A DNA stretch of 64,000 nt. Origin: Mycobacterium sp. (GTDB lineage: Bacteria; Actinomycetota; Actinomycetes; Mycobacteriales; Mycobacteriaceae). The notes beneath the pieces were generated by a model. That model saw only the letters and a program-made list of their open reading frames with translations. It ran no database searches and was not told the origin of the DNA. The translations under genes and the position numbers were made by a program. The number at the start of each line of letters is the position of its first letter. Position 1 is the stretch's first letter. Location: positions 21,130 to 85,129 of the forward strand of contig JAOPWC010000130.1 in assembly GCA_025965895.1 (NCBI GenBank), written 5' to 3'. Of the stretch, positions 31,274 through 47,519 are shown piece by piece.

Positions 31274-31513
31274 CTAGGTGATATCCGGGTCCCAGTCCTC
31301 GTCGCCGCTGTCGGCGCTGGTCAACTGCTCCTGCCAGTCCGCCGGGTCGACGTCGGTGGGTGGCGGCATCTCCGCCGCTATCTCGCTGGCCTCGGTGGGC
31401 TGGAAGTCTTCCGAGAGCTCTCGGTCCTCACCTACTGGAAGCCGTTGCTCGACCGCATCGGGTATCGGCACCTCTTCACCGATGGGCTCGTCGGAATCAG
31501 GACCAAGTGTCAC
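31274..31513 (-). CDS. small acidic hypothetical protein
   Basis: MTLGPDSDEPIGEEVPIPDAVEQRLPVGEDRELSEDFQPTEASEIAAEMPPPTDVDPADWQEQL; GTG start 10 nt downstream of a SigF-like -10. Confidence 0.65.
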   Translation of the reverse strand: MTLGPDSDEPIGEEVPIPDAVEQRLPVGEDRELSEDFQPTEASEIAAEMPPPTDVDPADWQEQLTSADSGDEDWDPDIT

Positions 31514-31523
31514 ACGCGGAAGC

Positions 31524-31548
31524 TACCCGGACGGCATTCGGCCAAAAC
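31524..31548 (-). promoter_or_regulatory. SigF-like promoter GTTT-N16-GGGTA
   Basis: Minus strand GTTT (31548-31545), GGGTA (31528-31524). Confidence 0.68.
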
Positions 31549-31580
31549 CCCGTGCCGAAACCCCGTGCCAAAACCCCGCG
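31545..31580. repeat. 13-bp tandem repeat aaaccccgtgcc(g/a) x2.8 between divergent SigF-like promoters
   Basis: 31545-31557, 31558-31570, partial 31571-31580. Confidence 0.92.
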
Positions 31581-31603
31581 TTTCGTCTCCGGTGCGCCGG
31601 GTA
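31580..31603 (+). promoter_or_regulatory. SigF-like promoter GTTT-N15-GGGTA
   Basis: gttt 31580-31583, gggta 31599-31603; ATG at 31616. Confidence 0.7.
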
Positions 31604-31615
31604 ATAAGGCAACCC

Positions 31616-33139
31616 ATGACTTCTCTGTGGTTAGCCGACCGAGTTGGCGGGCCTTGGGCTGCAAGTACCCTCGACGACGTTGACCGGGCATCCGACGTGA
31701 TCGTCGCGGGCGCGGGCATCACCGGGCTGATGACGGCGGTGTTGCTGGCCCGCGCAGGCGAGAAGGTAGTCGTGCTCGAGGCGCGCTCGGTGGGCGCCGT
31801 CACGACCGGCAACACCACCGGCAAGATCAGCCTGTTGCAGGGCGATCACCTGGCCAGGATCATCGCCAAACACGGCACCGACGTCGCCCGCGACTATGTC
31901 AGCGGCAACCGGGAGGGTCAGGAGTGGGTGCTTCACCACTGTGCGACCCACGGTGTGGCGGTGCAGCGCGAAGACGCGTACACCTACGCCCAGTCCGGCA
32001 AGGGCGTCGGCGCCGCCCGCGCCGAGCTCCAGGCATGTCAGACCGTTGGCCTGCCGGCGGAATGGGATGACGATGCCGACGTGCCGTTCCCGTATCACGG
32101 CGGCGTCCGGCTGGCCGACCAGGGGCAGTTCGACCCGATGCCGTTCCTCGACAGCCTCGCGACAGAGCTGATCGGGCGAGGGGGCAGTCTGCTCGAGGGC
32201 GCGCGGGTGCGCCGGGTCTCCGGCCAGTGCGGGAGGCTGAAGGTGCAGGTCAACGGTCCGTCGGACGGTGACATCGAGGGGGCGGTCGAACTGGGAGCCG
32301 GGCAGCTGGTGCTGGCCACCGGCATCCCGATCCTCGACCGCGGCGGCTTCTTCGCCAGGCTCAAGCCGGGCCGCTCGTACGCCATGGCCTTCCGGGTGCC
32401 CGGCAACATCACCCGACCGATGATGATCTCGACCGATTCACCGACCAGGTCCGTGCGCTACGCGCCGACCGCCGACGGCGAGCGGCTGATCGTCGGCGGC
32501 GCCGGCCATCCAGTGGGGCGCGCCAAAAGCCCTGCCGCCGCGCTTGAGGAGCTGTCGAACTGGGCGCGGGTGCACTATCCCGGCGCGGTGCGCACGCATT
32601 ACTGGTCAGCGCAGGATTACACCCCCATTGACGAATCGCCTTACGTCGGCCCGATCCTTCCCAACAGCGAATCCATATTTGTGGCAACGGGATTCAACAA
32701 GTGGGGCATGACCAATGGCGCGGCCGCCGCGCTGGCGTTGTCCAGCCGCATTCTCGGTGGCCGAATGGATTGGGCGAGCGCGTTCTCCAGTTGGAGTCCG
32801 CGCGAATTGCATGGGCTGGCCACGGCAGTCGAGGCCAATCTCGAGGTCGGTCTCAATATGGCCAAGGGCTGGATCGCTCCGCTCACCCGGTCGATTCAGC
32901 GCAATCCGGGAAAGGATGAGGGTGGCGTCGTCAGCGGGCTGCCGTGGCATCTGGAAGCCCGCTCTGTGGTGGACGGCACCGAACACCGGGTGTCGCCGGT
33001 GTGCCCGCATCTGGGCGGGATCGTGAACTGGAACGACGTCGACAGGGCCTGGGAGTGCCCGTTGCACGGATCGCGATTCGCGCCGGACGGCACATTGCTG
33101 GAGGGGCCTTCGACACGGGATCTCACCGCGTCACGCTGA
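31616..33139 (+). CDS. FAD-dependent oxidoreductase with C-terminal Rieske [2Fe-2S] domain
   Basis: SDVIVAGAGITGLMTAVLLARAGEKVVVLEA; Rieske CPHLGGIVNWNDVDRAWECPLHGSRF. Confidence 0.9.
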   Translation: MTSLWLADRVGGPWAASTLDDVDRASDVIVAGAGITGLMTAVLLARAGEKVVVLEARSVGAVTTGNTTGKISLLQGDHLARIIAKHGTDVARDYVSGNREGQEWVLHHCATHGVAVQREDAYTYAQSGKGVGAARAELQACQTVGLPAEWDDDADVPFPYHGGVRLADQGQFDPMPFLDSLATELIGRGGSLLEGARVRRVSGQCGRLKVQVNGPSDGDIEGAVELGAGQLVLATGIPILDRGGFFARLKPGRSYAMAFRVPGNITRPMMISTDSPTRSVRYAPTADGERLIVGGAGHPVGRAKSPAAALEELSNWARVHYPGAVRTHYWSAQDYTPIDESPYVGPILPNSESIFVATGFNKWGMTNGAAAALALSSRILGGRMDWASAFSSWSPRELHGLATAVEANLEVGLNMAKGWIAPLTRSIQRNPGKDEGGVVSGLPWHLEARSVVDGTEHRVSPVCPHLGGIVNWNDVDRAWECPLHGSRFAPDGTLLEGPSTRDLTASR

Positions 33140-33190: not shown

Positions 33191-34165
33191 ATGCCGACAA
33201 CAGCATCGGTGCGAACCGTTTTGCTCTGGCACGTACACGGCTCCTGGACCGAGGCTTTCGTGCAGGGCCGCCATCGCTATGTGCTGCCGCGCAACGACGC
33301 CGGCGACGCCGACGGGCGTGGACTGTGTGGGCGGCAATGGAAGCGTGCCGACGAGGTGGCGGTGGACAAGTTGGCCGACGAACCGGTCGACCTCGTCGTG
33401 TTGCAGCGCCCGGAGGAACTCGATCTGGCGGCCCGGTGGCTCGGCCGGCGCCCCGGCGAGGACGTGCCGGCCGTCTATGTCGAGCACAACGCGCCGCGAC
33501 CCTCACCGGTGAACAGCAGGCACGCGATCGCCGAGCGCTCCGACATCACGCTTGTCCACGTCACCGATTTCAACCGGCTGATGTGGGACAACGGGGTGGC
33601 GCCGACAATGGTGATCAGCCACGGCATCCCCGATCCCGGAGACCTCTACACCGGCGAACTTCCGGCCGCCGCGGCGATGATCAACGAGCCGCTGCGGCGC
33701 AACCGAGTGGTGGGCACAGACCTTCTCGGCCGGCTCTCCGCAGACGTTCCGCTCGACGTCTGGGGAATGGGAACCCACCAGCTCAACGATATCGACCTTG
33801 GCGGGCAGGTGCGCGGCCGCGGTGACGTGCACGCGCCGGAGTTGCACCGTCAAGTGGCCCGGCGCCGCGTTTATGTGCACACCGCACGCTGGACGTCGCT
33901 GGGGCTCTCGCTGATCGAGGCGATGCACCTGGCCATGCCGGTGATCGCGGTGGCCTCGACGATGGCCCCTCTGGCGGTGCCCAGCCAGGCCGGTGTGGTC
34001 AGCGCCGACGTCGACACGCTGGCGGAGGCAGTGAGGTTGTTTGTCTCCGAGCCGGAGGCGGCGAGGGCTGCGGGCAAGTCGGCCCGCCTGTTCGCCCTGC
34101 ACCACTTCGGGCTGCAGCGGTTCCTGGCCGACTGGGATCGTTTGATCGACGGCGTCTGCGCGTGA
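33191..34165 (+). CDS. GT4-like glycosyltransferase
   Basis: YVEHNAPRPSPVNSRHAIAERSDITLVHVTDFN; RVYVHTARWTSLGLSLIEAMHLAMPVIAVAST. Confidence 0.82.
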   Translation: MPTTASVRTVLLWHVHGSWTEAFVQGRHRYVLPRNDAGDADGRGLCGRQWKRADEVAVDKLADEPVDLVVLQRPEELDLAARWLGRRPGEDVPAVYVEHNAPRPSPVNSRHAIAERSDITLVHVTDFNRLMWDNGVAPTMVISHGIPDPGDLYTGELPAAAAMINEPLRRNRVVGTDLLGRLSADVPLDVWGMGTHQLNDIDLGGQVRGRGDVHAPELHRQVARRRVYVHTARWTSLGLSLIEAMHLAMPVIAVASTMAPLAVPSQAGVVSADVDTLAEAVRLFVSEPEAARAAGKSARLFALHHFGLQRFLADWDRLIDGVCA

Positions 34166-34195
34166 ATACGGCGCGTGAATAGGGAGGGAAGCCGG

Positions 34196-35416
34196 ATGAG
34201 AATCGCAATGATTTCCGAACACGCCAGCCCGCTGGCCGTGTTGGGCGGCGTCGACGCCGGCGGCCAGAACGTGCACGTCGCCGAGTTGTCCGCGGCGATG
34301 GCGCGCCGCGGCCACGAGATTCTGGTGTTTACCCGCCGCGACGACCCCGGCCTTCCGGAACGCGTGGATACCGCGGCCGGGTACACCGTCGTGCACGTGC
34401 CGGCCGGGCCACCGACGAACCTGCCCAAGGACGACCTGCTGGAGCACATGGGGCCGTTCGGGGAGTACCTCGCCGATCAGTGGATCACCGAGCGGCCCGA
34501 CATCGCACATGCGCATTTCTGGATGTCGGGAGTCGCGACAAGGCTGGCCGCGCGCCGCCGGAACGTCCCGATGGTGCAGACATTTCACGCGCTCGGCGTT
34601 GTCAAGCGGCGTCACCAGGGCGTGCGGGACACCAGCCCACCCGCGCGGGCACAACTCGAGAAGCTGCTGGCCCGCAATACCGACTGGGTTGCGGCCACCT
34701 GCACCGACGAGGTGTTCGAGCTGGTGCGGCTCGGCCGGCCGCGCTCCCGGACATCGGTGATCCCGTGCGGCGTCGATCTGCACCGCTTCACCCCGACTGG
34801 GGCCCGCGCCGGCCGGACAGACCGCCGCAGGATCGTTTCGGTGGGAAGGCTGGTGCCGCGGAAGGGGTTTGACATTCTGATACGGGCGATGGTCGCGGTC
34901 CCCGACGCCGAACTGCTGATCGTCGGTGGTCCCGACGTCAGCGCCCTGGATTCCGACCCCGAAGCGGTCCGGCTGTCGACCCTGGCGGCCGGGCTCGGGG
35001 TGGCCGATCGGGTTCGGCTGACCGGATCGGTGTCGCGGGGCGCGATGCCCGCGCTGCTGCGATCGGCCGACGTGGTCGCCTGCACGCCGTGGTACGAGCC
35101 GTTCGGCATCGTCCCGGTCGAGGCGATGGCGTGCGGAGTGCCGGTGCTCGCCGCGGCGGTCGGCGGGATGCTCGACACGGTTGTCGACGGCGGGACGGGT
35201 GTGCTGGTGCCGCCGCGCGATCCGCAGGCCTGCGCGGAGGCGCTGAACGCGATGCTCGCAGATCCTGCGCGGCTCGCCGAGTGGGGCGCAGCCGGACGCG
35301 CGCGCGCCGAGTCACGCTACTCGTGGGACAGGATCGCCGCCGACACGCTGAAGGTCTATCAGCGGACGATGCCGGCTTCGCATGCGATGACGGTGTCGGA
35401 CCGCCAGTGGGGTTAA
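34196..35416 (+). CDS. GT4 glycosyltransferase
   Basis: MRIAMISEHASPLAVLGGVDAGGQNVHVAELS; VGRLVPRKGFDILIRAM; PWYEPFGIVPVEAMACGVPVLA. Confidence 0.9.
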   Translation: MRIAMISEHASPLAVLGGVDAGGQNVHVAELSAAMARRGHEILVFTRRDDPGLPERVDTAAGYTVVHVPAGPPTNLPKDDLLEHMGPFGEYLADQWITERPDIAHAHFWMSGVATRLAARRRNVPMVQTFHALGVVKRRHQGVRDTSPPARAQLEKLLARNTDWVAATCTDEVFELVRLGRPRSRTSVIPCGVDLHRFTPTGARAGRTDRRRIVSVGRLVPRKGFDILIRAMVAVPDAELLIVGGPDVSALDSDPEAVRLSTLAAGLGVADRVRLTGSVSRGAMPALLRSADVVACTPWYEPFGIVPVEAMACGVPVLAAAVGGMLDTVVDGGTGVLVPPRDPQACAEALNAMLADPARLAEWGAAGRARAESRYSWDRIAADTLKVYQRTMPASHAMTVSDRQWG

Positions 35417-36300
35417 GCCGCCTCCAGTTGGCGCACCTTGCGCTCGAGTTCCTCAGGCAGCCGGCGACGCCGGCCCAGCGCGATGGGCAACCGGACCAAC
35501 GCCTCGGCGGCAGCGCGGGCGTGCGCGCTGTCGGCGGCGGCCGCCAGCAACAACTCGCGGGCGGTGGCCACACACCGATCGGGTGGTCGCCGCATCAAGC
35601 AGGTCAAGAAGTCGTTGCGCAGCACCCGCGCGTCCTGCGCGGCGGCCGCCGCCCGCACCGGCGAAGGCTCATGGAACGCAACGAGTTCGGGGCAGTAGCA
35701 CAGCTCCCACCCGGCGGCCGCAAGATCCAGCGCGAGCAGCTGCTCCTCGCCGCGAAAGTGCAGGACCGTACTGAATCCGCCGGCAGCAAGGAATGCCGAG
35801 GCGCGCACCATCGCCGAACACGACTGGAAGCCAAGCACAGAGGGTCCCGGCATGGCCGGCTTGCGGCCGAGCGCGCTGGACGCCAGCACGTCGCTGAACG
35901 GATCGCGGCGCCCCGACGGCCATACCACGGTCTGCGCGGCCAGCACCGCCACAGTGGGGTGCCGGTCGAACAGTTCCGTGCCGATCCGCGCCGACTCCGG
36001 AGCCCACCACGAATCGTCGTCGCAGAACGCCACATACGGCGTGTCACACGTCGCTACACCCACATTGCGGGCCACCGCACCACGATTGCGGGTCAGCGCC
36101 ACCAGCCTCAGCCGGGAGCCCTGCGGGTGCGTCCGCGCCAACGTGCCCACCGCGTCGCGCGAGTGGTCCCCAGAGTCGTTGTCCACCACGATGATAGGGC
36201 ACGGAGTGGTCTCGAGCAGGCGTGCCAACGTGTGCCCGAGTCCTTGGGCGCGGTCGCGGGTCGCGATGACAAACGACATTCGTCGGCCGGCGAGATCCAT
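35413..36300 (-). CDS. GT2 glycosyltransferase
   Basis: MSFVIATRDRAQGLGHTLARLLETTPCPIIVVDNDSGDHS; RNRGAVARNVGV; FCDDDSWW. Confidence 0.88.
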   Translation of the reverse strand: MDLAGRRMSFVIATRDRAQGLGHTLARLLETTPCPIIVVDNDSGDHSRDAVGTLARTHPQGSRLRLVALTRNRGAVARNVGVATCDTPYVAFCDDDSWWAPESARIGTELFDRHPTVAVLAAQTVVWPSGRRDPFSDVLASSALGRKPAMPGPSVLGFQSCSAMVRASAFLAAGGFSTVLHFRGEEQLLALDLAAAGWELCYCPELVAFHEPSPVRAAAAAQDARVLRNDFLTCLMRRPPDRCVATARELLLAAAADSAHARAAAEALVRLPIALGRRRRLPEELERKVRQLEAA

Positions 36301-36310
36301 GCCGGCCGAT

Positions 36311-36335
36311 TACCCGCCGCGACTCGGCGACAAAC
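36311..36335 (-). promoter_or_regulatory. SigF-like promoter GTTT-N16-GGGTA (for GT2 gene)
   Basis: Minus strand GTTT (36335-36332), GGGTA (36315-36311); ATG at 36300. Confidence 0.7.
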
Positions 36336-36336
36336 C

Positions 36337-36360
36337 GTTTTACCTCCCTGGATTCGGGTA
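36337..36360 (+). promoter_or_regulatory. SigF-like promoter GTTT-N15-GGGTA (for epimerase gene)
   Basis: gttt 36337-36340, gggta 36356-36360; GTG start 36371. Confidence 0.72.
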
Positions 36361-36370
36361 CCCGCGACCC

Positions 36371-37354
36371 GTGGCGGAATCGAATCGTGTCCTCGTCACC
36401 GGCGGAGCGGGCTTCCTCGGCAACCACCTGTGCCACCGGCTGCTCGACCGCGGTACGGAAGTGGTGTGCGTTGACGATTTGTCGACCAGTGGACCGGGCA
36501 ATGTGGCGGACCTCGGGCGACGCAGCGGGCTTCAGTTCGTCGAACACGACATCACCGAGACCTCAGGCGATCCGCGCCTGAACCACCCCTTCGATGCGGT
36601 CTTTCACCTGGCATCGCCGGCCTCCCCGCCGGATTACCAGAGGCTGCCGGTGCAGACCTTGCGGGTGGGAGCCCACGGGACGTCGGTCGCCCTGGATATC
36701 GCCGAACGCAGCGGCGCTCGCTTCGTGCTCGCCTCCACCAGTGAGGTGTACGGCGATCCCCTCGAACATCCGCAACGCGAAACCTATTGGGGCAACGTGA
36801 ATCCTGTCGGTCCCCGCAGCGTCTACGACGAAGCCAAACGGTTCGCCGAGGCGCTGGTGTTCGCCTATCACCGATCTCGTCACGGCGACGTCGCGGTGGC
36901 CCGCATCTTCAACACCTACGGTCCCCGGATGCGGGCCGACGACGGGCGGATGGTGCCGACATTCTGCCGGCAGGCGCTGTCTGACGAGCCGATCACCGTA
37001 TCCGGCAACGGTCGGCAGACCCGTTCGCTGTGCCACGTGGACGACACGGTCGCGGCGCTGCTCGCGCTCGCCGACGCCGACATCACCGGGCCGGTCAACA
37101 TCGGCAACCCGACCGAGCTCACCGTGCTCGAGGTTGCAGAGATGATTCGCGAGCTCGCACGCAGTTCCTCGCCGATTCATTATGTCGCTGCCGCGCAAGA
37201 TGATCCGCAACGCCGGTGCCCCGACATCCGGCTGGCACGAGAGCAGCTGGGTTGGGAGCCGAAGGTCCCTCCACAGGAGGGGCTCGCCGAGACCGTCGCG
37301 TGGTTCCGCGGTCGGGAGGCCGTCACGCGGCCGCACGCGGCCGAGCCTGTTTAA
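36371..37354 (+). CDS. NAD-dependent epimerase/decarboxylase, UDP-glucuronate decarboxylase (UXS)-like
   Basis: VLVTGGAGFLGNHLCHRLLDRG; HLASPASPPDYQ; STSEVYGDPLEHPQRETYWGNVNPVGPRSVYDEAKRFAE; ARIFNTYGPRMRADDGRMVPTFCRQAL. Confidence 0.85.
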   Translation: MAESNRVLVTGGAGFLGNHLCHRLLDRGTEVVCVDDLSTSGPGNVADLGRRSGLQFVEHDITETSGDPRLNHPFDAVFHLASPASPPDYQRLPVQTLRVGAHGTSVALDIAERSGARFVLASTSEVYGDPLEHPQRETYWGNVNPVGPRSVYDEAKRFAEALVFAYHRSRHGDVAVARIFNTYGPRMRADDGRMVPTFCRQALSDEPITVSGNGRQTRSLCHVDDTVAALLALADADITGPVNIGNPTELTVLEVAEMIRELARSSSPIHYVAAAQDDPQRRCPDIRLAREQLGWEPKVPPQEGLAETVAWFRGREAVTRPHAAEPV

Positions 37355-37372: not shown

Positions 37373-37412
37373 AGTGCTCTTTGGACGACTAACCACAGGC
37401 CAGGAGGTACGC

Positions 37413-39047
37413 GTGCGCGTTTTGGGCATCAACGCGGTGTTCCACGACCCCGCGGCCGCGCTCGTCGTCGACGGTCAGATCGTCGCGGCGGCCGAAGAGG
37501 AGCGCTTTTCCCGGCGCAAACACGGCAAGCAGGCGGTCGCGTTCTCCACGTGGGAAATGCCCACCCAGGCCGCGCGCTGGTGCCTCGAGCAGGGCGGCAT
37601 CGCGGCGTCCGACCTCGACGCCGTCGGGTACTCCTACGACCCGGCAACCGCGGAGCTCTCCGAGCCCCTGGCCGGACAGGACCGCGACTGGGAGTATCTG
37701 CGCACGCTGTACGCGCGGCGGGCCCCCCAGTTCCTCGCGGCCGCCCTGCCCGGCCTGGATCCCGGCATCGTCCGGCACGTCCGTCACCACGTCGCGCATG
37801 CCGCGTCCGCGTCACTGGCCTCGCCCGAACCCGACAGCGCCGTGCTGGTAATCGACGGTCGCGGCGAGACCACCTCGATGCTGGCGGGTGACTACCGCGA
37901 CGGAAAGCTCGATATCCTGTCGTCCCAACAACTCCCGCATTCACTCGGGCTGCTGTACGAAAGCCTGACCGAGCATCTGGGCTTCAAGCGGTCCAGCGAC
38001 GAGTACAAAGTCATGGCGATGGGCTCCTACGGGAAGCCCAGCTACGCCGACCGGCTACGGGAGTTGGTGTACTCCTGCGGCGACGGCACGTTCCGCACTG
38101 AGCCGGTGCACTGGACGCGGTTCACCGCACCGCGCGGCCGGGGCGACACGGGCCTCGACCCCGCACACGCCGACCTGGCCTGCAGCGTGCAGCGGGTTCT
38201 CGAGGAAGTGCTTTCCGACCTGGTGTCATGGCTACGCGGCCGCAGCGCCTCAGAGACGCTCTGCCTGGCAGGCGGGGTGGCGTTGAACTGCGTCGCCAAC
38301 TCGCGGCTGTACCGCAGCGGTCAGTTCCGCGACATCTGGGTGCAGCCCGCGGCCGGTGACGCGGGCACCGCGCTGGGCGCGGCGCTGGCAGTGGCGGCCG
38401 ATCTCGACGAGCCGATCAGCCCGATGCCCTCGGCGTCACTGGGCCGGGGGTGGGCGGACGACGAGCTCAGGGCGATCCTCGACGCCGCCGACGTGACCTA
38501 TGAGCGCCCCGACGATATCGCGGTGGCCATCGGAGACGCGTTGGCCGACGACAAACTCGTCGGCTGGTTCCAGGGCCGCGCCGAATTCGGCCCCCGCGCA
38601 CTGGGCAACCGGTCGTTGCTCGCCGATCCCCGGCACGCTGAAAACCTTGAGCGGATGAACGCCGTCAAGGGCCGCGAACAGTTCCGGCCGGTGGCGCCGA
38701 TGGTGCTCGCGGAGCGAGCCCCCGACATCTTCTCCGGCGGCCCGATACCCAGCCCCTACATGCTGTTCGTCCACGACGTCGATCCGGCATGGCGATCGCG
38801 AATACCCGCGGTAACCCATGTCGACGGCACCGCACGAATCCAGACCGTCGACACCGACACGCCGCTGCTGCACCAGATGATCAGCCGGTTCGCTTCGCGC
38901 ACCGGGGTACCGGTCGTGGTCAACACCAGCTTCAACACCGCGGGACGTCCCATGGTCGACAGCCCTCGTGACGCGCTCGAGTGCTTCGGCAGCGCACCAA
39001 TCGATGTACTGGCCTTGGGGCCCTTCATGATTCGGCGGCATCGGTGA
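37413..39047 (+). CDS. NodU/CmcH-family carbamoyltransferase
   Basis: VLGINAVFHDPAAALVVDGQIVAAAEEERFSRRKHGK; HVAHAASA; LAGGVALNCVANSRL; GRAEFGPRALGNRSLLADPR. Confidence 0.93.
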   Translation: MRVLGINAVFHDPAAALVVDGQIVAAAEEERFSRRKHGKQAVAFSTWEMPTQAARWCLEQGGIAASDLDAVGYSYDPATAELSEPLAGQDRDWEYLRTLYARRAPQFLAAALPGLDPGIVRHVRHHVAHAASASLASPEPDSAVLVIDGRGETTSMLAGDYRDGKLDILSSQQLPHSLGLLYESLTEHLGFKRSSDEYKVMAMGSYGKPSYADRLRELVYSCGDGTFRTEPVHWTRFTAPRGRGDTGLDPAHADLACSVQRVLEEVLSDLVSWLRGRSASETLCLAGGVALNCVANSRLYRSGQFRDIWVQPAAGDAGTALGAALAVAADLDEPISPMPSASLGRGWADDELRAILDAADVTYERPDDIAVAIGDALADDKLVGWFQGRAEFGPRALGNRSLLADPRHAENLERMNAVKGREQFRPVAPMVLAERAPDIFSGGPIPSPYMLFVHDVDPAWRSRIPAVTHVDGTARIQTVDTDTPLLHQMISRFASRTGVPVVVNTSFNTAGRPMVDSPRDALECFGSAPIDVLALGPFMIRRHR

Positions 39048-40558
39048 TGACGGCCGCCGAAGCGGCCAGCGTGGCGATGGTGATTCCGACGATCGGGCGC
39101 GAGTCGCTGGGGCGGCTGCTGGCCGCACTGGACCGCGGCGACGGTCCGCGGCCGTCGGCGGTGATCGTCGTCGACGACCGCGCGGCAACAGATAAGCCGC
39201 TGGATATGACCGCGACCGAACTGCCGATCACAGTGCTGCGCTCAGGGGGCCGCGGACCCGCGGCGGCGCGAAATGTGGGATGGCGCAACAGCGGCGCCAC
39301 GTGGATCTGCTTCCTGGACGACGACGTGGTCACGGGCGACGACTGGCCGGCCCGGCTGGCCGACGACGTCAAAGCCGCGGATCACTCCGTCGTCGGAATA
39401 TCGGCCCGCATGACGGTGCCCGCGCCCTCGCACCGGCGTGCCACCGACGACGAGCGCCGCACGCTGCAGCTGGCCACCTCGCGATGGATCACCGCCGACA
39501 TGGCTTACCGCCGATCCGCTTTGGTGGCGTGCGGCGGGTTCGACGAGCGGTTCCCCCGCGCCTACCGGGAAGACGCCGACATCGCGCTGCGGATAACCCG
39601 CTGCGGCGGGCGAATCGTGACGGGGACGCGGGAAACCGTGCACCCTGTTGCCGCCCGCTCGTCGTCGGTGCTCACCAGCGTGCGGGCCCAGGTCGGCAAC
39701 CGCGACGACGCGTTGATGCGGCGTAAGCACGGTCGTCGCTGGCGCGAAAAGATCGGCGGCGAGCCCGCGCGGCTGCCTGTGCACGCGACGACGACCGCGG
39801 GTGCCGCCCTCGCGACGCTGGCGGCACTCGCGCGCCGGCCGCGGCTCGCGGTTATCGCGTTGCTGTCATGGCTGGGCCTGACTACGGAGTTCGCGATACG
39901 CCGCATCGTGGCCGGCCCCCCCGCTGCGCGGGAAGTCATCGCGATGCTCATCAGCAGCGCGCTGATACCGCCGGTGGCGGTCGCTCAACGTCTTTGGGGC
40001 ACCTGGAGGTTCCGGCGCGCGCGGCCCGACCCCCCGCTCGCGGTACTGCTCGACCGCGACGACACGCTGATCGAAGACGGACCCTATCTGAACGATCCGG
40101 GTGCCGTGGTGCCGAAGTCTGACGCGGTGCACGCGCTGGGCCGCCTTCGCAAGCACGGCCTGTTGCTGGCCGTCGTGAGCAACCAGTCGGGCGTCGCGAA
40201 GGGCTTGATCAGCGCCGAGCAACTCAACGCGGTGAACGCCCGGGTCGACGAACTGCTCGGCCCATTCGACTCGTGGCAGATCTGTCTGCACGACGTCCAC
40301 GACGCGTGTGAATGTCGAAAGCCCGCTCCCGGCATGGTGATCGCGGCAGCCGACGCGCTGGGCGTCGACACCGCCCGCTGCGTGATGATCGGCGACACCG
40401 GCGGCGACGTGGAAGCCGCCCGGGCCGCCAAGGCAACGGCAATCTTGGTGCCGACCGACCGAACTCGCCGGGAGGAGATCCACGACGCCCACGTCAACGC
40501 GCGGGTGGCCGGTTCGCTCGACGAGGCGGTGTCGCTCGTCCTGAGGGCCTGGCAATGA
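39047..40558 (+). CDS. fusion: GT2 glycosyltransferase + GmhB-like D-glycero-D-manno-heptose-1,7-bisphosphate phosphatase (HAD)
   Basis: GT2: VIPTIGRESLGRLLAALDRG..VVDDRAA..WICFLDDDVVTGDDW; HAD: AVLLDRDDTLIEDGPYLNDPGAVVPKSDAVHAL..SNQSGVAKG..CLHDVHDACECRKPAPGM..MIGDTGGDVEAA. Confidence 0.88.
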   Translation: MTAAEAASVAMVIPTIGRESLGRLLAALDRGDGPRPSAVIVVDDRAATDKPLDMTATELPITVLRSGGRGPAAARNVGWRNSGATWICFLDDDVVTGDDWPARLADDVKAADHSVVGISARMTVPAPSHRRATDDERRTLQLATSRWITADMAYRRSALVACGGFDERFPRAYREDADIALRITRCGGRIVTGTRETVHPVAARSSSVLTSVRAQVGNRDDALMRRKHGRRWREKIGGEPARLPVHATTTAGAALATLAALARRPRLAVIALLSWLGLTTEFAIRRIVAGPPAAREVIAMLISSALIPPVAVAQRLWGTWRFRRARPDPPLAVLLDRDDTLIEDGPYLNDPGAVVPKSDAVHALGRLRKHGLLLAVVSNQSGVAKGLISAEQLNAVNARVDELLGPFDSWQICLHDVHDACECRKPAPGMVIAAADALGVDTARCVMIGDTGGDVEAARAAKATAILVPTDRTRREEIHDAHVNARVAGSLDEAVSLVLRAWQ

Positions 40559-41580
40559 GCACCGCGTTGGTTGCCCGGCTCGACAGCACCGGTGACGTGT
40601 TGATCACCGGTCCTGCCGTGCGGGCGGTCGCGGCGTCACACGATCGGGTGGTCTTCCTCGCCGGCCCGCGCGGCAGCGAAGCGGCACGGCTGCTGCCCGG
40701 CGTGGACCGTGTCGTGGAATGGGCCGCCGCGTGGGTGGACTTCGACGCACCCGAGCTGACCGCCGACACCGTGACGGCGCTGATGACGATGATCGCGCAG
40801 GAACAGCCGGATTCGGCGCTGATCTTCACCTCGTACCACCAGTCGCCGTTGCCGCTTGCGCTGATCTGCCGCATGGCGGGGGTCAGCTGGACCGGCGCGA
40901 TCTGCGAGGACTATCCGGGCAGCCTGCTCAACCTGCGCCACCACGTCGCCGACGGTGTACCGGAGCCCCTGCGCGCGCTGTCGCTGGCGGAGGCTGCCGG
41001 GTGGCGGTTGCCGTTCGGCGACGACGGCCGGCTTCGTCTTCGCCGGCTTCCGCCACTGCATCCGAGCCTGTCGTCGGCAACGGCCGGACACGACTACGTG
41101 GCGTTCCACCCGGGCGCCGCCGTACCGGCCCGGCGGCCGTCGGCACATTCGTCGGCCGAGATCGCGCGGGCGCTCGCCGCCGCCGGTCACTTCGTCGTGG
41201 TCACCGGCACCGAAGCCGACCGGGTACTGACGGCACAGGTGGCCGGCGACGACGGGCTCGACCTTGGCGGCCACACGACGCTGGCGGAACTGGCTTCGGT
41301 GTTCGCTTCGGCCCGGGCCGTCGTGGCGCCCAACACAGGGCCGGCGCATCTTGCCGCGGCGGTCGGGACACCGGTGGTGTCGCTGTTCGCACCAGTGGTG
41401 CCCGCCGGCCAGTGGGCGCCGTACGGAACGATCGTCGTGCTCCTGGGTGATCAGGACGCGCCGTGCCGGCTGACCCGGGCGAGGGAATGCGCGGTCCCGG
41501 GACACCCGTGCCTCAACGGCATCGCGCCGGCAGATGTCGTCGCCGCAGTCGCCGATGTACAGAGTCGAGGTGCAGCATGA
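40555..41580 (+). CDS. GT9 (heptosyltransferase-like) glycosyltransferase
   Basis: VARLDSTGDVLITGPAVRAVA; HPGAAVPARR; VVAPNTGPAHLAAAVGTPVVSLF. Confidence 0.88.
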   Translation: MSTALVARLDSTGDVLITGPAVRAVAASHDRVVFLAGPRGSEAARLLPGVDRVVEWAAAWVDFDAPELTADTVTALMTMIAQEQPDSALIFTSYHQSPLPLALICRMAGVSWTGAICEDYPGSLLNLRHHVADGVPEPLRALSLAEAAGWRLPFGDDGRLRLRRLPPLHPSLSSATAGHDYVAFHPGAAVPARRPSAHSSAEIARALAAAGHFVVVTGTEADRVLTAQVAGDDGLDLGGHTTLAELASVFASARAVVAPNTGPAHLAAAVGTPVVSLFAPVVPAGQWAPYGTIVVLLGDQDAPCRLTRARECAVPGHPCLNGIAPADVVAAVADVQSRGAA

Positions 41581-42134
41581 TTGACAAACATTTCGCCGAC
41601 CTGGTCCGGGCGGCGGTCCAGGTTCGGCCGAGTGCCGTCCAGCTGCAGCAGTGGGCCGAGCACCTGGTGCGCGTCTTCGATGCAGGCGGCCGGCTGATGG
41701 CGTGCGGCAACGGCGGCAGTGCCGCCGAGGCTCAACACCTGACCGCCGAACTGGTCGGGCGGTTCAAGGATGATCGCCGACCTCTGTCGGCCATCGCATT
41801 GCACGCGGACACGTCGGCCACCACCGCGATCGTCAACGACTACGGCGCCGAGGAGATGTTCGCACGCGGGGTGCGGGCGCACGGGCGGCCCGGCGACGTG
41901 CTGGTGGCGTTGAGTACCAGCGGCACCAGCCCCAATGTGCTGAGTGCGGTCAAGGCGGCCCAAGAGGCCAACGTGACCACCTGGGCGCTGACCGGGCCGG
42001 CGCCGAATCCGCTCGCCGCGATGAGCGATGACGCGATCTGCGTGGAGGCCGGGTCCACCGCGACGGTGCAGGAGATGCATCTGGTCCTGCTGCACGCGCT
42101 GTGCATCGCGCTCGACGAGTTGCTGATCGGATGA
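41577..42134 (+). CDS. gmhA: sedoheptulose 7-phosphate (phosphoheptose) isomerase
   Basis: MACGNGGSAAEAQHLTAELVGRFKDDRRPLSAIALHADTSATTAIVNDYGAEEMFARGVRAHGRPGDVLVALSTSGTSPNV. Confidence 0.93.
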   Translation: MIDKHFADLVRAAVQVRPSAVQLQQWAEHLVRVFDAGGRLMACGNGGSAAEAQHLTAELVGRFKDDRRPLSAIALHADTSATTAIVNDYGAEEMFARGVRAHGRPGDVLVALSTSGTSPNVLSAVKAAQEANVTTWALTGPAPNPLAAMSDDAICVEAGSTATVQEMHLVLLHALCIALDELLIG

Positions 42135-43528
42135 CAGTGAAATCGCTTGTCATCGTTGGTGATTCGATGCTCGACGTCGATGTCGACGGGTCGGCCAGCC
42201 GGCTGTCCCCGGAGGCGCCCGTGCCGGTCGTCGAACCCGACCGGATCTGGCACCGTCCCGGCGGAGCCGGCCTTGCCGCGGTGCTTGCGGCGCGGGTGCA
42301 TTCCGAGGTCGTGCTGATCACGGCGACCGCCGACGACGCCGCGGGGCGTTCGCTTGCCGCGCTGTTCGCGACCGATCACCCCGAGATCCGGTTGATCGGG
42401 CTGCCGCTCACCGGCACCACGCTGAGCAAGATCCGTATCCGGGCGGGCGGGCAGTCGGTGGTCCGGGTCGACCACGGTGACGGCGCGGCCGCCGCTGACA
42501 CCCTGCCGTCGGAAGTGAGCGACGTGCTGGCAGCGGCGGGTTCGGTCTGCGTTGCCGATTACGGGCGCGGCGTCGCGGCGCACCCGCATCTGCGCGCGGC
42601 GCTGAGCGATGTCGTCGCGCGCCTGCCCGTGGTCTGGGATCCTCATCCGCGGGGTGCGCGACCGATCCCGGGATGCACACTGGCCACTCCCAATCTCGCA
42701 GAAGCCCAGCACTTTTCGCCGGGCGCCGCACACGCCGGCCAGCTGGCTACCACGTTGCGGGCCGATTGGCAGGCTCGCGCGGTCAGTGTCACGCTGGGAT
42801 CGCACGGTGCGATGTTCTCCGACGCAGATCACACCGTGGAGCACGTCGCGGCGCCAGACAACCTCGGGGCCGGCCGCCCCGACACCTGCGGCGCCGGTGA
42901 TCGGTTCGCTGTGGCGGCCGCGCTTGCGCTCGCCGACGGTGCCGGCCCGCTCGCCGCCACCACCAGCGCGGTGGAGGCGGCCTCGCGTTTCGTCGCCACC
43001 GGTGGTGCGGCCGGGGTGTCCAGCGCGATGGCGATGCCCGGCGATTTCGGGCTGGCGCCCACCGCCGGCGCGGTCACCGGCATGCCCGCGGTGCTCGACC
43101 TGGCCGATCGGCTCCGCCAGCGCGGCAAGACATTGGTCGCCACCGGCGGATGCTTCGACCTGCTGCACACCGGGCATGTGCGGCTACTGCGCCGCGCCCG
43201 CGAGCTGGGCGACGCGCTCGTGGTGCTGATCAACTCCGACGAGTCCGTGAGCGCGCTGAAGGGGCCCGGCCGCCCGGTGGTGCCCGCGGCCGACCGCGCG
43301 CGGGTGCTCGCGGCACTGGCGTGCGTCGACGGCGTCGGGATTTTCACCGAAGAGTCCCCGGTGGCCGCAGTGGAGCGGCTCAAGCCGGACATCTGGGTAA
43401 AAGGCGGCGACTACACCGGCGTGCAGCTGCCGGAAGCGGAGGCGGTGCGCAGACACGGCGGTGAGGTGGTGCTGCTGCCGACCGTGCCGGGCTACTCCTC
43501 GTCGAAGCTCATCGCCGACGCACGGTAA
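42131..43528 (+). CDS. hldE: bifunctional heptose-7-phosphate kinase / heptose-1-phosphate adenylyltransferase
   Basis: PfkB domain (GDSMLDVDVDGSASRLSPEAPVPVVEP; PDTCGAGDRF) + nucleotidyltransferase (TGGCFDLLHTGHVRLLRRAR; DIWVKGGDYT). Confidence 0.92.
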   Translation: MTVKSLVIVGDSMLDVDVDGSASRLSPEAPVPVVEPDRIWHRPGGAGLAAVLAARVHSEVVLITATADDAAGRSLAALFATDHPEIRLIGLPLTGTTLSKIRIRAGGQSVVRVDHGDGAAAADTLPSEVSDVLAAAGSVCVADYGRGVAAHPHLRAALSDVVARLPVVWDPHPRGARPIPGCTLATPNLAEAQHFSPGAAHAGQLATTLRADWQARAVSVTLGSHGAMFSDADHTVEHVAAPDNLGAGRPDTCGAGDRFAVAAALALADGAGPLAATTSAVEAASRFVATGGAAGVSSAMAMPGDFGLAPTAGAVTGMPAVLDLADRLRQRGKTLVATGGCFDLLHTGHVRLLRRARELGDALVVLINSDESVSALKGPGRPVVPAADRARVLAALACVDGVGIFTEESPVAAVERLKPDIWVKGGDYTGVQLPEAEAVRRHGGEVVLLPTVPGYSSSKLIADAR

Positions 43529-43549: not shown

Positions 43550-44254
43550 ATGACGCAGACCTCACACCCGCTGGGCAACGTTCTGATCGCCGGCGGTGCA
43601 TCCGGACTCGGCGCCGCTGCGGTGCTCGCCGTGCAGCGACACGGCGGCACCCCGCTGGTGATCGACATCGCGAAACCGCAATCCGATGAGGTCGCCTACG
43701 CGTGGGCCGACCTCGCCGACACGGCGATGGTGGACGCCGCGATTCACGAGCTCGTCGAATCCGTCGACGGTCGCTTGCAAGGCGTGTTCACCCCTGCCGG
43801 GATCGACAGCTGTGGGCGGCTGGACACCGTGGCGGTCAAGGACTGGGAACGGGTGCTGCACGTCAACCTGCTCGGCACGGCGGCCGTCGTGCGTTCCACG
43901 CTGCCCTACCTGAGAGCCTCCGGTGGCCGCATCGTCACGTGCGCGTCGACGTTGGGCATCAAGGCGGTCAGCGACGCCACCGCGTACTGCGCGTCGAAAT
44001 TCGGTGTGGTGGGCTTCACCCGCGCGCTGGCCGCGGAGCTCGCCGGTCAGGTCGGCGTGACGTTGCTGATTCCCGGCGGCATGCAGACCCCGTTCTTCGA
44101 CGGGCGCGACGAGCAGTACAAGCCGCCGCCCGACGCCAAGCTCAACGACCCCGACCACGTCGCCGAAACCGTCGTGTTCGCGCTGAGCCAGCCGCCGGGA
44201 TGTGAGATCCGCGAGATGGTGGTGTGCTCCTCTGAGGAGTCGTCGTGGCCCTGA
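43550..44254 (+). CDS. short-chain dehydrogenase/reductase
   Basis: VLIAGGASGLGAAAVLAVQRHGG; YCASKFGVVGFTRALAAEL. Confidence 0.87.
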   Translation: MTQTSHPLGNVLIAGGASGLGAAAVLAVQRHGGTPLVIDIAKPQSDEVAYAWADLADTAMVDAAIHELVESVDGRLQGVFTPAGIDSCGRLDTVAVKDWERVLHVNLLGTAAVVRSTLPYLRASGGRIVTCASTLGIKAVSDATAYCASKFGVVGFTRALAAELAGQVGVTLLIPGGMQTPFFDGRDEQYKPPPDAKLNDPDHVAETVVFALSQPPGCEIREMVVCSSEESSWP

Positions 44255-45198
44255 ACCTCGCGGATCCCGCGGGAACCGTGCTGGTGCTGAGGGCGCTGGG
44301 TCTTGGTGATCTCCTGACGGGGATTCCGGCGCTGCGCGGGCTGCGCCGGGCGTTCCCGGCGGCGAGGTTGGTCTTGGCGACCCGGGCGGATCTCGCGTCG
44401 TTGGCGTTGTTCTGCGGCGCCGTCGACGAGGTGGTGCCCACCCCGGGTCTGGGCGAATTGCGTTGGAATCGGCCTCCTCCCGAGTTGGCGGTCAATCTGC
44501 ACGGGTGCGGCCCGGAAAGCATCGCCGACCTGATGGGCGCCGGACCCAGGCTTGTGATCTCGCATCGACACGCGTCGTACCCGACACTGGGCGGACCGCC
44601 GTGGCGCGACGAGGTGCATGAGGTCGACCGCTGGTGCGGTCTTCTGGGCTGGGCCGGAATCGACTGCGATGCCGAGCATTTGGGTCTGGGCCGACCCGCA
44701 GGCTACCCGTATCGCCGTGATGTCGTCGTCATCCATCCCGGCGCCGGGTACCCGTCGCGCCGCTGGCCGCCGGAGAGGTTCGCTGAAGTCGCCGCGGCGC
44801 TGCAGGCCGCGGGTCACCGCATCGTCGTCACCGGGTCGGCCGCCGAGCAGGAACTCGCCGAGACCGTGGCGCAGCACGCCGGCCTGGACGAGTCGGCGGT
44901 CCTGGCGGGACAACTCGACGTGCTCGGCATGGTCGCCCTGATCACCGACTGCCACTTGCTCATCTGCGGTGACACCGGTATCGGCCACATCGCGACAGCG
45001 ACCGGCACGCCCTCGGTGCTGTTGTTCGGTCCGACGCCACCGAGCCGGTGGGGGCCACGCGGCCGCGGACGCCACGTCACCGTCTGGGCCGGCGACCGTG
45101 GCGATCCGCACGCGGACCGGCCGCATCGCGGCCTGCTGCTTATCACGCCGTCGCGCGTGCTGGAGGCCAGCAGGCAGATCCTCGCGGAGATCGCATGA
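44245..45198 (+). CDS. GT9 (heptosyltransferase-like) glycosyltransferase
   Basis: VLVLRALGLGDLLTGIPALRGLRRAFPAARLVLAT; VIHPGAGYPSRRWPPERFAEVAAAL; ICGDTGIGHIATATGTPSVLLFGPTPPSRWGP. Confidence 0.9.
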   Translation: MALNLADPAGTVLVLRALGLGDLLTGIPALRGLRRAFPAARLVLATRADLASLALFCGAVDEVVPTPGLGELRWNRPPPELAVNLHGCGPESIADLMGAGPRLVISHRHASYPTLGGPPWRDEVHEVDRWCGLLGWAGIDCDAEHLGLGRPAGYPYRRDVVVIHPGAGYPSRRWPPERFAEVAAALQAAGHRIVVTGSAAEQELAETVAQHAGLDESAVLAGQLDVLGMVALITDCHLLICGDTGIGHIATATGTPSVLLFGPTPPSRWGPRGRGRHVTVWAGDRGDPHADRPHRGLLLITPSRVLEASRQILAEIA

Positions 45199-46496
45199 GC
45201 CAGATGAGCATCAGGGCCGGCGTGGTCGGCGCGGGTTATGTTGGGCTCACGAGCGCGGTCTGCCTGGCCGCCAAGGGAATCGACACCGTGTGCGTGGACA
45301 GTGACCCTCATCGCGTCACGCAATTGTCCCGCGGCGTGCCGGTGCTCGACGAGCCGGAACTCGACGACCTCCTGCACGCCGGCTTAGAGTGCGGCACACT
45401 GAATTTCGCCGACGACTACGAGGCCTTACACGGATGCGATGTGGTATTCGTGTGCGTGCCCACCCCGACCGCGGCCGACGGCAGCGCCGAGCTCAGCGCG
45501 GTCGAATCAGCAGTCGACAAGCTCGCCGGACTGCTGCGGCGCGGATCCGTGGTCGCGATCAAGTCGACGGTGCCGGTGGGTACCTGCCGCCGGTTGAGCA
45601 CCCGGCTTGCCGCCCGCGACATCGCGACGGCCTCGAATCCCGAGTTCCTGCGGGAAGGCCACGCGATCTACGACTTCTGCCACCCGGACCGGGTCGTGAT
45701 CGGCGCGAATGACGCCGTCGCCGCCGACACCGTGGAGCAGGTGTATCGCGGGGACACCGACACGATCCTGCGGTTGAGCCTGGAAAGCGCTGAGTTGGCC
45801 AAGTACGCCAGCAACGCCTTCCTGGCCGTCAAGCTCTCCTACGCGAACTCGCTCGCCGCGCTGTGCACGCAGGTGGGCGCTGACATCCGCGACGTCACGC
45901 GCTGCATGGGCGCCGACCCGCGCATCGGCCGGGAGTTCTTGGCACCCGGGCCCGGCTGGGGCGGGTCCTGCCTGCCGAAGGACACCGCGGCGCTACTGCA
46001 CACCGGCCGTGCACACGGTGTCCCGCTGTCCGAGGTCGCGTGGGCCCGGCGCACCAACCACGCCCAGGGCGAGCGCATCATCACCACGCTGCGCCGGGCG
46101 CTCAAGCGCCCGCTGCGCGATGTCCGGGTCGCCGCGTTCGGGCTGACCTTCAAGGCCGGCACCAGCGACATCCGCGACTCTCCGGCGCTGACGATCTGCG
46201 CAGAACTTCAGCTGGCCGGCGCGCTGGTCACCGCCTACGACCCGAGATTGGACAGCATCGACCGCGCACAGCTCACGGTGGCGACCGAGGGTGACCCGTA
46301 CGTGGCGGCCAAGGACGCGGACGCGATCCTGGTGCTCACCGAGTGGCCGGACTTCGTGGAGCTGGACTGGGATTCCATCGGCCGCGATGCTGCTTCGTCA
46401 GCCGTCGTCGTCGACACTCGCAACATCCTCGACCGGAACATGATCGGCGAATCGTCGCTGGCCTACATGGGCAACGGCGTCGCGGGGGGCTACTGA
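45195..46496 (+). CDS. UDP-glucose/GDP-mannose dehydrogenase family protein (likely UDP-glucose 6-dehydrogenase)
   Basis: GVVGAGYVGLTSAVCLAAKG; VPTPTAADGSAELSAV; SNPEFLREGHAIYDFCHPDRVVIG; PGPGWGGSCLPKDTAAL; FKAGTSDIRDSPAL. Confidence 0.9.
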   Translation: MSQMSIRAGVVGAGYVGLTSAVCLAAKGIDTVCVDSDPHRVTQLSRGVPVLDEPELDDLLHAGLECGTLNFADDYEALHGCDVVFVCVPTPTAADGSAELSAVESAVDKLAGLLRRGSVVAIKSTVPVGTCRRLSTRLAARDIATASNPEFLREGHAIYDFCHPDRVVIGANDAVAADTVEQVYRGDTDTILRLSLESAELAKYASNAFLAVKLSYANSLAALCTQVGADIRDVTRCMGADPRIGREFLAPGPGWGGSCLPKDTAALLHTGRAHGVPLSEVAWARRTNHAQGERIITTLRRALKRPLRDVRVAAFGLTFKAGTSDIRDSPALTICAELQLAGALVTAYDPRLDSIDRAQLTVATEGDPYVAAKDADAILVLTEWPDFVELDWDSIGRDAASSAVVVDTRNILDRNMIGESSLAYMGNGVAGGY

Positions 46497-46499
46497 CGC

Positions 46500-47519
46500 T
46501 CAGCGGTTCTTGTCGGCACGGGTGATCAGCCGAGCGGCGGCCTGCTCGACGATCTGCTGGCGGGTCGCCGCTGAGCGCTCCCGGTCGGCTCGGCGCAGCG
46601 CGGGGGCGATCGTCACGCCGCCCTCATATGCGCGCACCACCCGCGGATCGACATACGAGCTGCGCGCCACGGCGGGGGTGTTGCCGAGTTCTTCGGATAC
46701 GGCCTTCATCACCGCCGATGCCGCGCGGCGGCGAGCGGTTTTCGACGTCGGCTCGGGAGCGTGAGCGAACGCCTCGGCGGCCAGCACGGTGCCGTGCCAG
46801 GTTCGGAGGTCTTTGATGGTGAACTCGTCGCCGACAAGCTCCCGAAAGCGGGAGTTGACGTCGTCGGCGTGTACCTCGGCCCATCCGTCGTCCGCCCGAT
46901 ACACCAGCAGGCGCGGCAGCCGGGTGTCGGCGCGCAGCAGCGACCGCACCGCATTCACCAGCATCGGATCTTCGATCGTGATGGTGCGGCGCACCCCGCT
47001 CTTGGCGGGGTAGTCGAATTCGACGCCGCCGCGACACAGTCTGACGTGTTCGCGGCGCAGGGTGGCCAACCCGAAGCTGCCGTTCTCCTGCGCGTACTCT
47101 TCGCCGCCGGCGCGGAAGTAGCCGACGTCGAGCAACTGGTGAGCCACCGCGAGCACCCGGTCACGGTGCAGCCCGCGGGCGTTGAGATCGTCGAGCACTC
47201 GTAACCGCCAGGTCGGCAGGCGCTTGGCCATGTTCAGCGCCCGATCGTATTTCTCCTCGGCGCGTTCGGCGTGCCATTGCTCGTGATACAGGTACTGCTT
47301 GCGCCCCGCGGCATCGACGCCGACGGCCTGTATGTGGCCGCTGGGATAGGGACAGATCCAGACGTTCTTCCACGCCGGCGGGATCACCAACGCTTCGATC
47401 CGGGTAAGGGTCTCGGGGTCGTCGATCCTGTCGCCGTTCGGGTCCACGTATGAGAAGCCACGACCGCGGCGGACCCGGCGCACACCGGGGCCGCCGACCG
47501 TACTCCTGCGCAGCCTCAC
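46500..47519 (-). CDS. type IB (poxvirus-like) DNA topoisomerase
   Basis: GFSYVDPNGDRIDDPETLTRIEALVIPPAWKNVWICPYPSGHIQAVGVDAAGRKQYLYHEQW; TIKDLRTWHGTVLAAEAFA; ARSSYVDPRVV. Confidence 0.9.
   Translation of the reverse strand: MRLRRSTVGGPGVRRVRRGRGFSYVDPNGDRIDDPETLTRIEALVIPPAWKNVWICPYPSGHIQAVGVDAAGRKQYLYHEQWHAERAEEKYDRALNMAKRLPTWRLRVLDDLNARGLHRDRVLAVAHQLLDVGYFRAGGEEYAQENGSFGLATLRREHVRLCRGGVEFDYPAKSGVRRTITIEDPMLVNAVRSLLRADTRLPRLLVYRADDGWAEVHADDVNSRFRELVGDEFTIKDLRTWHGTVLAAEAFAHAPEPTSKTARRRAASAVMKAVSEELGNTPAVARSSYVDPRVVRAYEGGVTIAPALRRADRERSAATRQQIVEQAAARLITRADKNR

Follow-up and report, generated by a model that had tools for sequence, protein, structure and literature searches.

The window analysed here, a 64,000-nucleotide stretch of Mycobacterium sp. 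DNA (assembly GCA_025965895.1, contig JAOPWC010000130.1), carries genes resembling gmhA and hldE together with a GT2 glycosyltransferase fused to a HAD phosphatase, and raises the question of whether a mycobacterium may produce an ADP-activated heptose, and for what product. The published account of heptose metabolism in mycobacteria is of a GDP route (PMC7705670), and no paper on a mycobacterial ADP-heptose or cwg cluster was found among the titles and abstracts of the literature matches. The gene content, gene order, active-site conservation, co-occurrence and operon match observed here indicate that the locus is probably a mycobacterial version of the Streptomyces cwg operon, with the counterparts of cwgC (GT2) and cwgD (HAD) fused, and that it would make a heptose-containing envelope glycan.

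In Streptomyces coelicolor, cwgA-L (SCO6179-6190) forms a 12-gene cell wall glycan operon under the envelope-stress factor sigma-E (PMC6767563), the eighth gene of which, cwgH, is annotated as a phosphoheptose isomerase and the ninth, cwgI, as a bifunctional synthase/transferase (PMC5839063). The window locus is read as a mycobacterial cwg-type cluster. A 12-gene run in Streptomyces sp. CA-256286, which has the gene count and composition of this operon, reads epimerase, carbamoyltransferase, glycosyltransferase (GT), HAD, GT9, GT, GT, SIS, HldE, GT9, GT, GT, and all 12 genes were found to match window proteins (the matching covered the Streptomyces and an Arthrobacter locus together, the Streptomyces rows being picked by coordinates). 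Shared between the two loci are the 12 kinds of gene seen in the Streptomyces operon, namely a UDP-glucuronate decarboxylase-like protein, a carbamoyltransferase, a GT2, a HAD, a GT9, two GT4 enzymes, GmhA, HldE, a further GT9 and two further GT2 enzymes, and the window keeps the core order of the Streptomyces operon, though not its full order. Unlike in cwg, the GT2 and HAD of the window are one protein, two GT4 genes lie upstream, one GT2 gene is on the opposite strand, a short-chain dehydrogenase (SDR) and a UDP-glucose dehydrogenase are added, and sigma-E control was not seen. A preliminary description of this DNA had overlooked the Streptomyces counterpart, as well as the UDP-xylose genes, the carbamoyltransferase and the further glycosyltransferases.

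The GT2-HAD, GT9, GmhA and HldE open reading frames lie head to tail on the forward strand (39047-43528), all with ATG starts. Overlaps of 1-4 bases join the carbamoyltransferase to GT2-HAD at 39047 (TGATG) and the subsequent frames at 40555, 41577 and 42131 (each ATGA), which suggests translational coupling; the start-to-stop overlap of gmhA and hldE recorded in the preliminary description is the four-base one at 42131.

As judged from these genes, the product would be a carbamoylated, xylose- and heptose-containing envelope glycan or glycolipid; even in Streptomyces the cell wall glycan is termed ‘predicted’ or ‘tentative’ (PMC5839063, PMC6767563). The cluster might instead direct synthesis of a secreted secondary metabolite, an antibiotic-like glycoside comparable to the heptose-bearing septacidin, given that its carbamoyltransferase resembles antibiotic tailoring enzymes (the top solved relatives include TobZ, GdmN and the novobiocin carbamoyltransferase) and that septacidin and related antibiotics of Streptomyces draw on ADP-heptose (PMC10948575, PMC11573728). 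However, no polyketide synthase, non-ribosomal peptide synthetase or aglycone gene was recognised beside the cluster, and we consider a secondary metabolite unlikely.

In the fusion, both Pfam domains share one 503-residue frame, with the GT2 at residues ~1-240, helices to ~321 and the HAD at ~330-503, so that the HAD does lie at the C-terminus of the GT2 as first described. The top NCBIfam model for the HAD half was GmhB, heptose-1,7-bisphosphate phosphatase (PRK08942; 3.1e-33), and the nearest solved structures were D,D-heptose-1,7-bisphosphate phosphatases (GmhB); the broader histidinol-phosphatase-domain and HAD-IIIA models were also passed. The D-R-D (nucleophile and acid Asp), N-Q-S, R-K-P and G-D...D motifs were invariant in all 135 HAD domains compared, fused or free, and the zinc Cys-His-Cys-Cys set was kept in at least 134 of them. 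The GT2 DDR/DDD/ED residues, like the full set of HAD residues, were retained in 16 mycobacterial fusions (that of the window and 15 whose identity to it is 61-71%). By family, the fused HAD belongs with the GmhB-type HAD-IIIA phosphatases, and its catalytic and zinc residues are intact.

An AlphaFold2 model of the fusion (mean pLDDT, the predicted local distance difference test, 84.4) placed three long helices (243-321) between a GT2 fold and a HAD fold. A fold search with this model returned as top PDB matches 3l8e, 2gmw and 3l8h (TMt ~0.8), the D,D-heptose-1,7-bisphosphate phosphatases of E. coli and Bordetella. The GT2 domain had no PDB match by sequence and only generic GT2 folds in the fold search, and a viral fold library likewise gave generic GT2 matches only. 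The helices are no more than moderately hydrophobic, so that they may, but need not, tether the fusion to a membrane.

The suggestion of a lineage-specific fusion did not hold. The full fusion was found in 36 of 149 sampled mycobacterial species, and in one more was broken over contigs. Of 396 genomes sampled from the class, 42 encode it in one frame at full or nearly full length, and 31 of these belong to other families; in the phylum sample, it also occurs in 13 genomes from other classes. Carriers include Mycobacterium persicum, M. yunnanensis, Nocardia, Amycolatopsis, Saccharopolyspora, Prauserella, Geodermatophilus and Blastococcus (Geodermatophilaceae), Kribbella, Nocardioidaceae, Cellulomonas, Acidimicrobiales and a Dormibacteraeota metagenome-assembled genome; the fusion is common across Actinomycetota. 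An assembly error was ruled out, as dozens of independent genomes have the single open frame, with identities of 58-71% within the genus. Other genomes encode the GT2 and HAD separately within the same cluster, the two genes being either adjacent (as in Streptomyces) or on opposite strands, or have the HAD without the GT2, and the free-standing HADs of related genomes also lie inside the cluster. A tree of the HAD domains required eight changes between the fused and separate states, at least three of them forced by well-supported branches; the direction of change is not readable from it, and the sampling favoured fused forms.

Presence of GT2-HAD agreed fully with that of the cluster-type HldE in the 149 mycobacterial genomes (37 with both, 112 with neither, none discordant; Fisher p ~7e-36, relatedness ignored), and largely so in the class sample (93 with both, 293 with neither, 9 and 1 discordant). 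For 51 of the 56 relatives with full flanks, GmhA and HldE were both no more than 10 kb away from the fusion.

Several loci in this survey depart from the common arrangement. A 4.40 Mb single-contig Mycobacterium genome (G074, locus L045) holds a broken cluster in which carbamoyltransferase, decarboxylase and GT4 genes are left, the GT2 is cut at about residue 306, and the HAD, GT9, GmhA and HldE genes are gone, a natural case of loss. Another genome of the genus (G034; L190, 8572-13810) has a heptose-type locus without the cwg cluster, comprising an HldE 34% identical to that of the window, a GT9-like gene and, at 63 bits, a distant free HAD. In three Amycolatopsis loci (L104, L106 and L109), a fused GT2-HAD and a GT9 occur with no GmhA or HldE nearby, and the fusion adjoins a different, opposite-strand carbamoyltransferase (37% identity); this is perhaps a relocated or second-use copy.

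It is improbable, but worth weighing, that the HAD dephosphorylates some other substrate, such as histidinol phosphate or a phosphate carried by the product of the GT2, with an unlinked enzyme removing the C7 phosphate of the heptose. Its GmhB score lies below the NCBI curated equivalog cut-off (114.8 against 178 bits) whilst the more general phosphatase models are passed, and the fact that it is fused to a GT2 could point to the product of that enzyme as its substrate. Against this, both the top-scoring equivalog and the top solved structures are GmhB, the other HADs of the genome reach no more than about 33 bits with the same model, co-occurrence with HldE is strict, and a free-standing form remains in the cluster where the GT2 is absent or on the other strand.

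The remaining enzymes point to the branch of the pathway. GmhA carries PF13580 and has phosphoheptose isomerases as its nearest solved structures (5i01, 1.4e-45). HldE combines PfkB (PF00294) and CTP_transf_like (PF01467) domains in one protein, and its nearest solved structures are a nucleotidyltransferase of HldE type and the heptose-7-phosphate kinase 4e84 (2.3e-12). A PfkB-type kinase joined to an HldE-type nucleotidyltransferase implies the beta/ADP branch, unlike the HddA/GDP scheme. The ADP-heptose-type pathway put forward in the preliminary description, with the fused HAD supplying the phosphatase step, is supported by these assignments, and both GT9 enzymes likewise appear to be of heptosyltransferase type by NCBIfam models and the structure 1psw. 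That the cluster instead feeds the GDP-heptose (alpha) route, for which GmhA, HddA, GmhB and HddC make up the published M. tuberculosis scheme (PMC7705670), is very improbable, since its kinase is PfkB-type and fused to an HldE-type nucleotidyltransferase, and no HddA, HddC or GDP-type guanylyltransferase domain was detected in the locus genes scanned, the rest of the genome being unscanned for them. The arginine motif for NTP promiscuity (STTR5) described by Tang et al. (PMC11461863, PMC11573728) was absent from the window HldE, in which the stretch reads VPGYSSS, with a tyrosine; GYSSS also occurs in three other mycobacteria.

A census of the organism's own genome (95.7% complete) returned a single GmhA and a single HAD of GmhB grade, that of the fusion, the next-best HAD scoring ~33 bits; further GmhA or GmhB candidates were sought, and none was present at a comparable score. 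The 6-epimerase HldD, needed only for the L,D form, had no match over the cut-off in this genome (best 83.8 of 274.6 bits, amongst 16 weak extended-SDR matches), which favours D,D-heptose as the predicted sugar. Within the cluster, an NAD-epimerase-like protein was considered as HldD and rejected, as it is the UDP-glucuronate decarboxylase, and the SDR is of the classical rather than the extended (HldD) type.

The same genome encodes a second, more canonical HldE (L046, 6412-10008, contig C12; 347 bits to the HldE model), 37% identical to that of the window and with its nucleotidyltransferase domain over the cut-off. It is flanked on one side by a GT2-like gene and on the other by a GT9 gene of the opposite strand, and copies of this kind occur in several other families too. 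As there is no second GmhA or GmhB in the genome, the fused HAD may serve both HldE loci.

The reactions, the anomer and epimer, the donor used by each glycosyltransferase and the product are all predictions from sequence. From established family chemistry, the steps would run from GmhA through the HldE kinase, the HAD and the HldE nucleotidyltransferase to GT9. Phosphorylation of C1 (beta) would fall to the PfkB half of HldE and removal of the C7 phosphate to the fused HAD, and the heptose would be transferred by one or both GT9 enzymes. The UDP-glucose dehydrogenase and the decarboxylase would provide UDP-glucuronate and UDP-xylose for some of the GT2 and GT4 enzymes, and the carbamoyltransferase would decorate a hydroxyl. 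As the HAD would act between the two HldE steps, before glycosyl transfer, the fusion does not imply a direct hand-over to its own GT2; nor, as the HAD would act before the sugar nucleotide exists, need the GT2 itself use heptose. In the simplest view, the fusion is a device for co-expression and stoichiometry (equal amounts) or for location.

Several points weigh against a heptose-bearing, cwg-type envelope glycan. GmhA, GmhB, HldE and both GT9 enzymes all score below the NCBI curated equivalog cut-offs (GmhA 183.6 against 276 bits and HldE 271 against 521, in addition to the GmhB value given above), so that substrate identity is not assured; GT9 a resembles heptosyltransferases weakly, and GT9 membership by itself does not prove that heptose is the donor. 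Five of the 56 full-flank relatives have no GmhA and/or HldE within 10 kb. The cwg identification draws on a Streptomyces other than S. coelicolor and on the published gene order. Genes for a flippase, a polymerase or a lipid carrier were not recognised within the cluster, and sigma-E-type promoter sequences (GAAC-N15-18-CGTC) gave 24 matches against 20.3 expected, none of them on the forward strand shortly before the cluster.

Set beside known systems, the locus shares GmhA, a bifunctional HldE, a GmhB-like HAD and GT9 heptosyltransferase-family enzymes with the Gram-negative ADP-heptose pathway (GmhA, HldE, GmhB, HldD, WaaC/WaaF), but its GmhB is fused to a GT2, there is no HldD over the cut-off and no lipopolysaccharide acceptor, and its scores fall short of the equivalog cut-offs. 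With the M. tuberculosis scheme it shares the first step, GmhA, and a phosphatase of the same type, but has HldE in place of HddA and HddC. NDP-heptose synthesis in actinobacteria has already been proposed by Tang et al. (PMC11573728, PMC11461863); unlike the tridomain NDP-heptose synthetases of actinobacteria, the window has a GmhA separate from its didomain HldE, and a phosphatase joined to a GT2. The genes of the cluster are listed in Table 1.

Table 1. Genes of the probable cwg-type cluster, with window coordinates (relatives, the 56 with full flanks; Streptomyces, sp. CA-256286; e-values after each model or structure)
Feature	Coordinates	Strand	Evidence
GT4-type glycosyltransferase, cwgF-like, short N-terminal part	33191..34165	+	Pfam Glycos_transf_1 2.5e-09; kept in 46/56 relatives; 53% to Streptomyces operon gene
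GT4 glycosyltransferase, cwgG-like	34175..35416	+	Pfam Glycos_transf_1 2.7e-40; 49/56 relatives
GT2 glycosyltransferase, cwgK/L-like, opposite strand	35413..36300	-	Pfam Glycos_transf_2 1.2e-17; both terminal GTs of Streptomyces operon match (44% and 39%)
UDP-glucuronate decarboxylase (UDP-xylose synthase), cwgA-like	36299..37354	+	Human UDP-glucuronate decarboxylase 1, 1.2e-96; ATG at 36299, comparison query began at 36305
O-carbamoyltransferase, cwgB-like	37374..39047	+	Pfam Carbam_trans_N/C
Fused GT2 and GmhB-like HAD phosphatase, counterpart of cwgC and cwgD	39047..40558	+	Pfam, NCBIfam, structures
GT9 glycosyltransferase a, heptosyltransferase family, cwgE-like	40555..41580	+	Pfam Glyco_transf_9 4.4e-20; heptosyltransferase II 1psw 1.1e-06
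GmhA, predicted sedoheptulose-7-phosphate isomerase, cwgH-like	41577..42134	+	NCBIfam phosphoheptose isomerase 3.4e-54
HldE, predicted bifunctional heptose-7-phosphate kinase / heptose-1-phosphate adenylyltransferase, cwgI-like	42131..43528	+	NCBIfam HldE 1.7e-80
Classical SDR	43550..44254	+	Pfam adh_short 3e-32
GT9 glycosyltransferase b, heptosyltransferase family, cwgJ-like	44245..45198	+	NCBIfam heptosyltransferase models 1.1e-20; 1psw 2.6e-17
UDP-glucose 6-dehydrogenase	45195..46496	+	TIGR03026 nucleotide sugar dehydrogenase 1.8e-120, over cut-off; top specific NCBIfam models are UDP-glucose 6-dehydrogenases

The SDR gene directly follows hldE in 42 of the 56 relatives, and its product is often 57-70% identical, even outside the mycobacteria. 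Just upstream of the cluster (31445-33139) lies a gene for an FAD-dependent oxidoreductase with a C-terminal Rieske domain, found beside the cluster in few mycobacteria. The other flank is occupied on the opposite strand by a gene (46500-47519) whose product we read as a predicted type IB DNA topoisomerase, and which adjoins the cluster in many mycobacteria as well as in a small number of other relatives.

About a quarter (~25%) of the sampled mycobacterial species, including that of the window and M. persicum, carry the predicted ADP-heptose gene set, and a conserved HldE-type locus at this frequency predicts a second, ADP-type route of heptose activation alongside the GDP route described to date. 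The cwg operon, which serves in Streptomyces as a readout of envelope stress and is chemically undefined, is likewise tied to predicted sugars, namely D,D-heptose, glucuronate/xylose and carbamate. There is roughly an even chance of a reading in which these mycobacteria make ADP-heptose and would then hold an agonist of the human sensor ALPK1, and the sensing by ALPK1 of a metabolite from some mycobacteria becomes testable.

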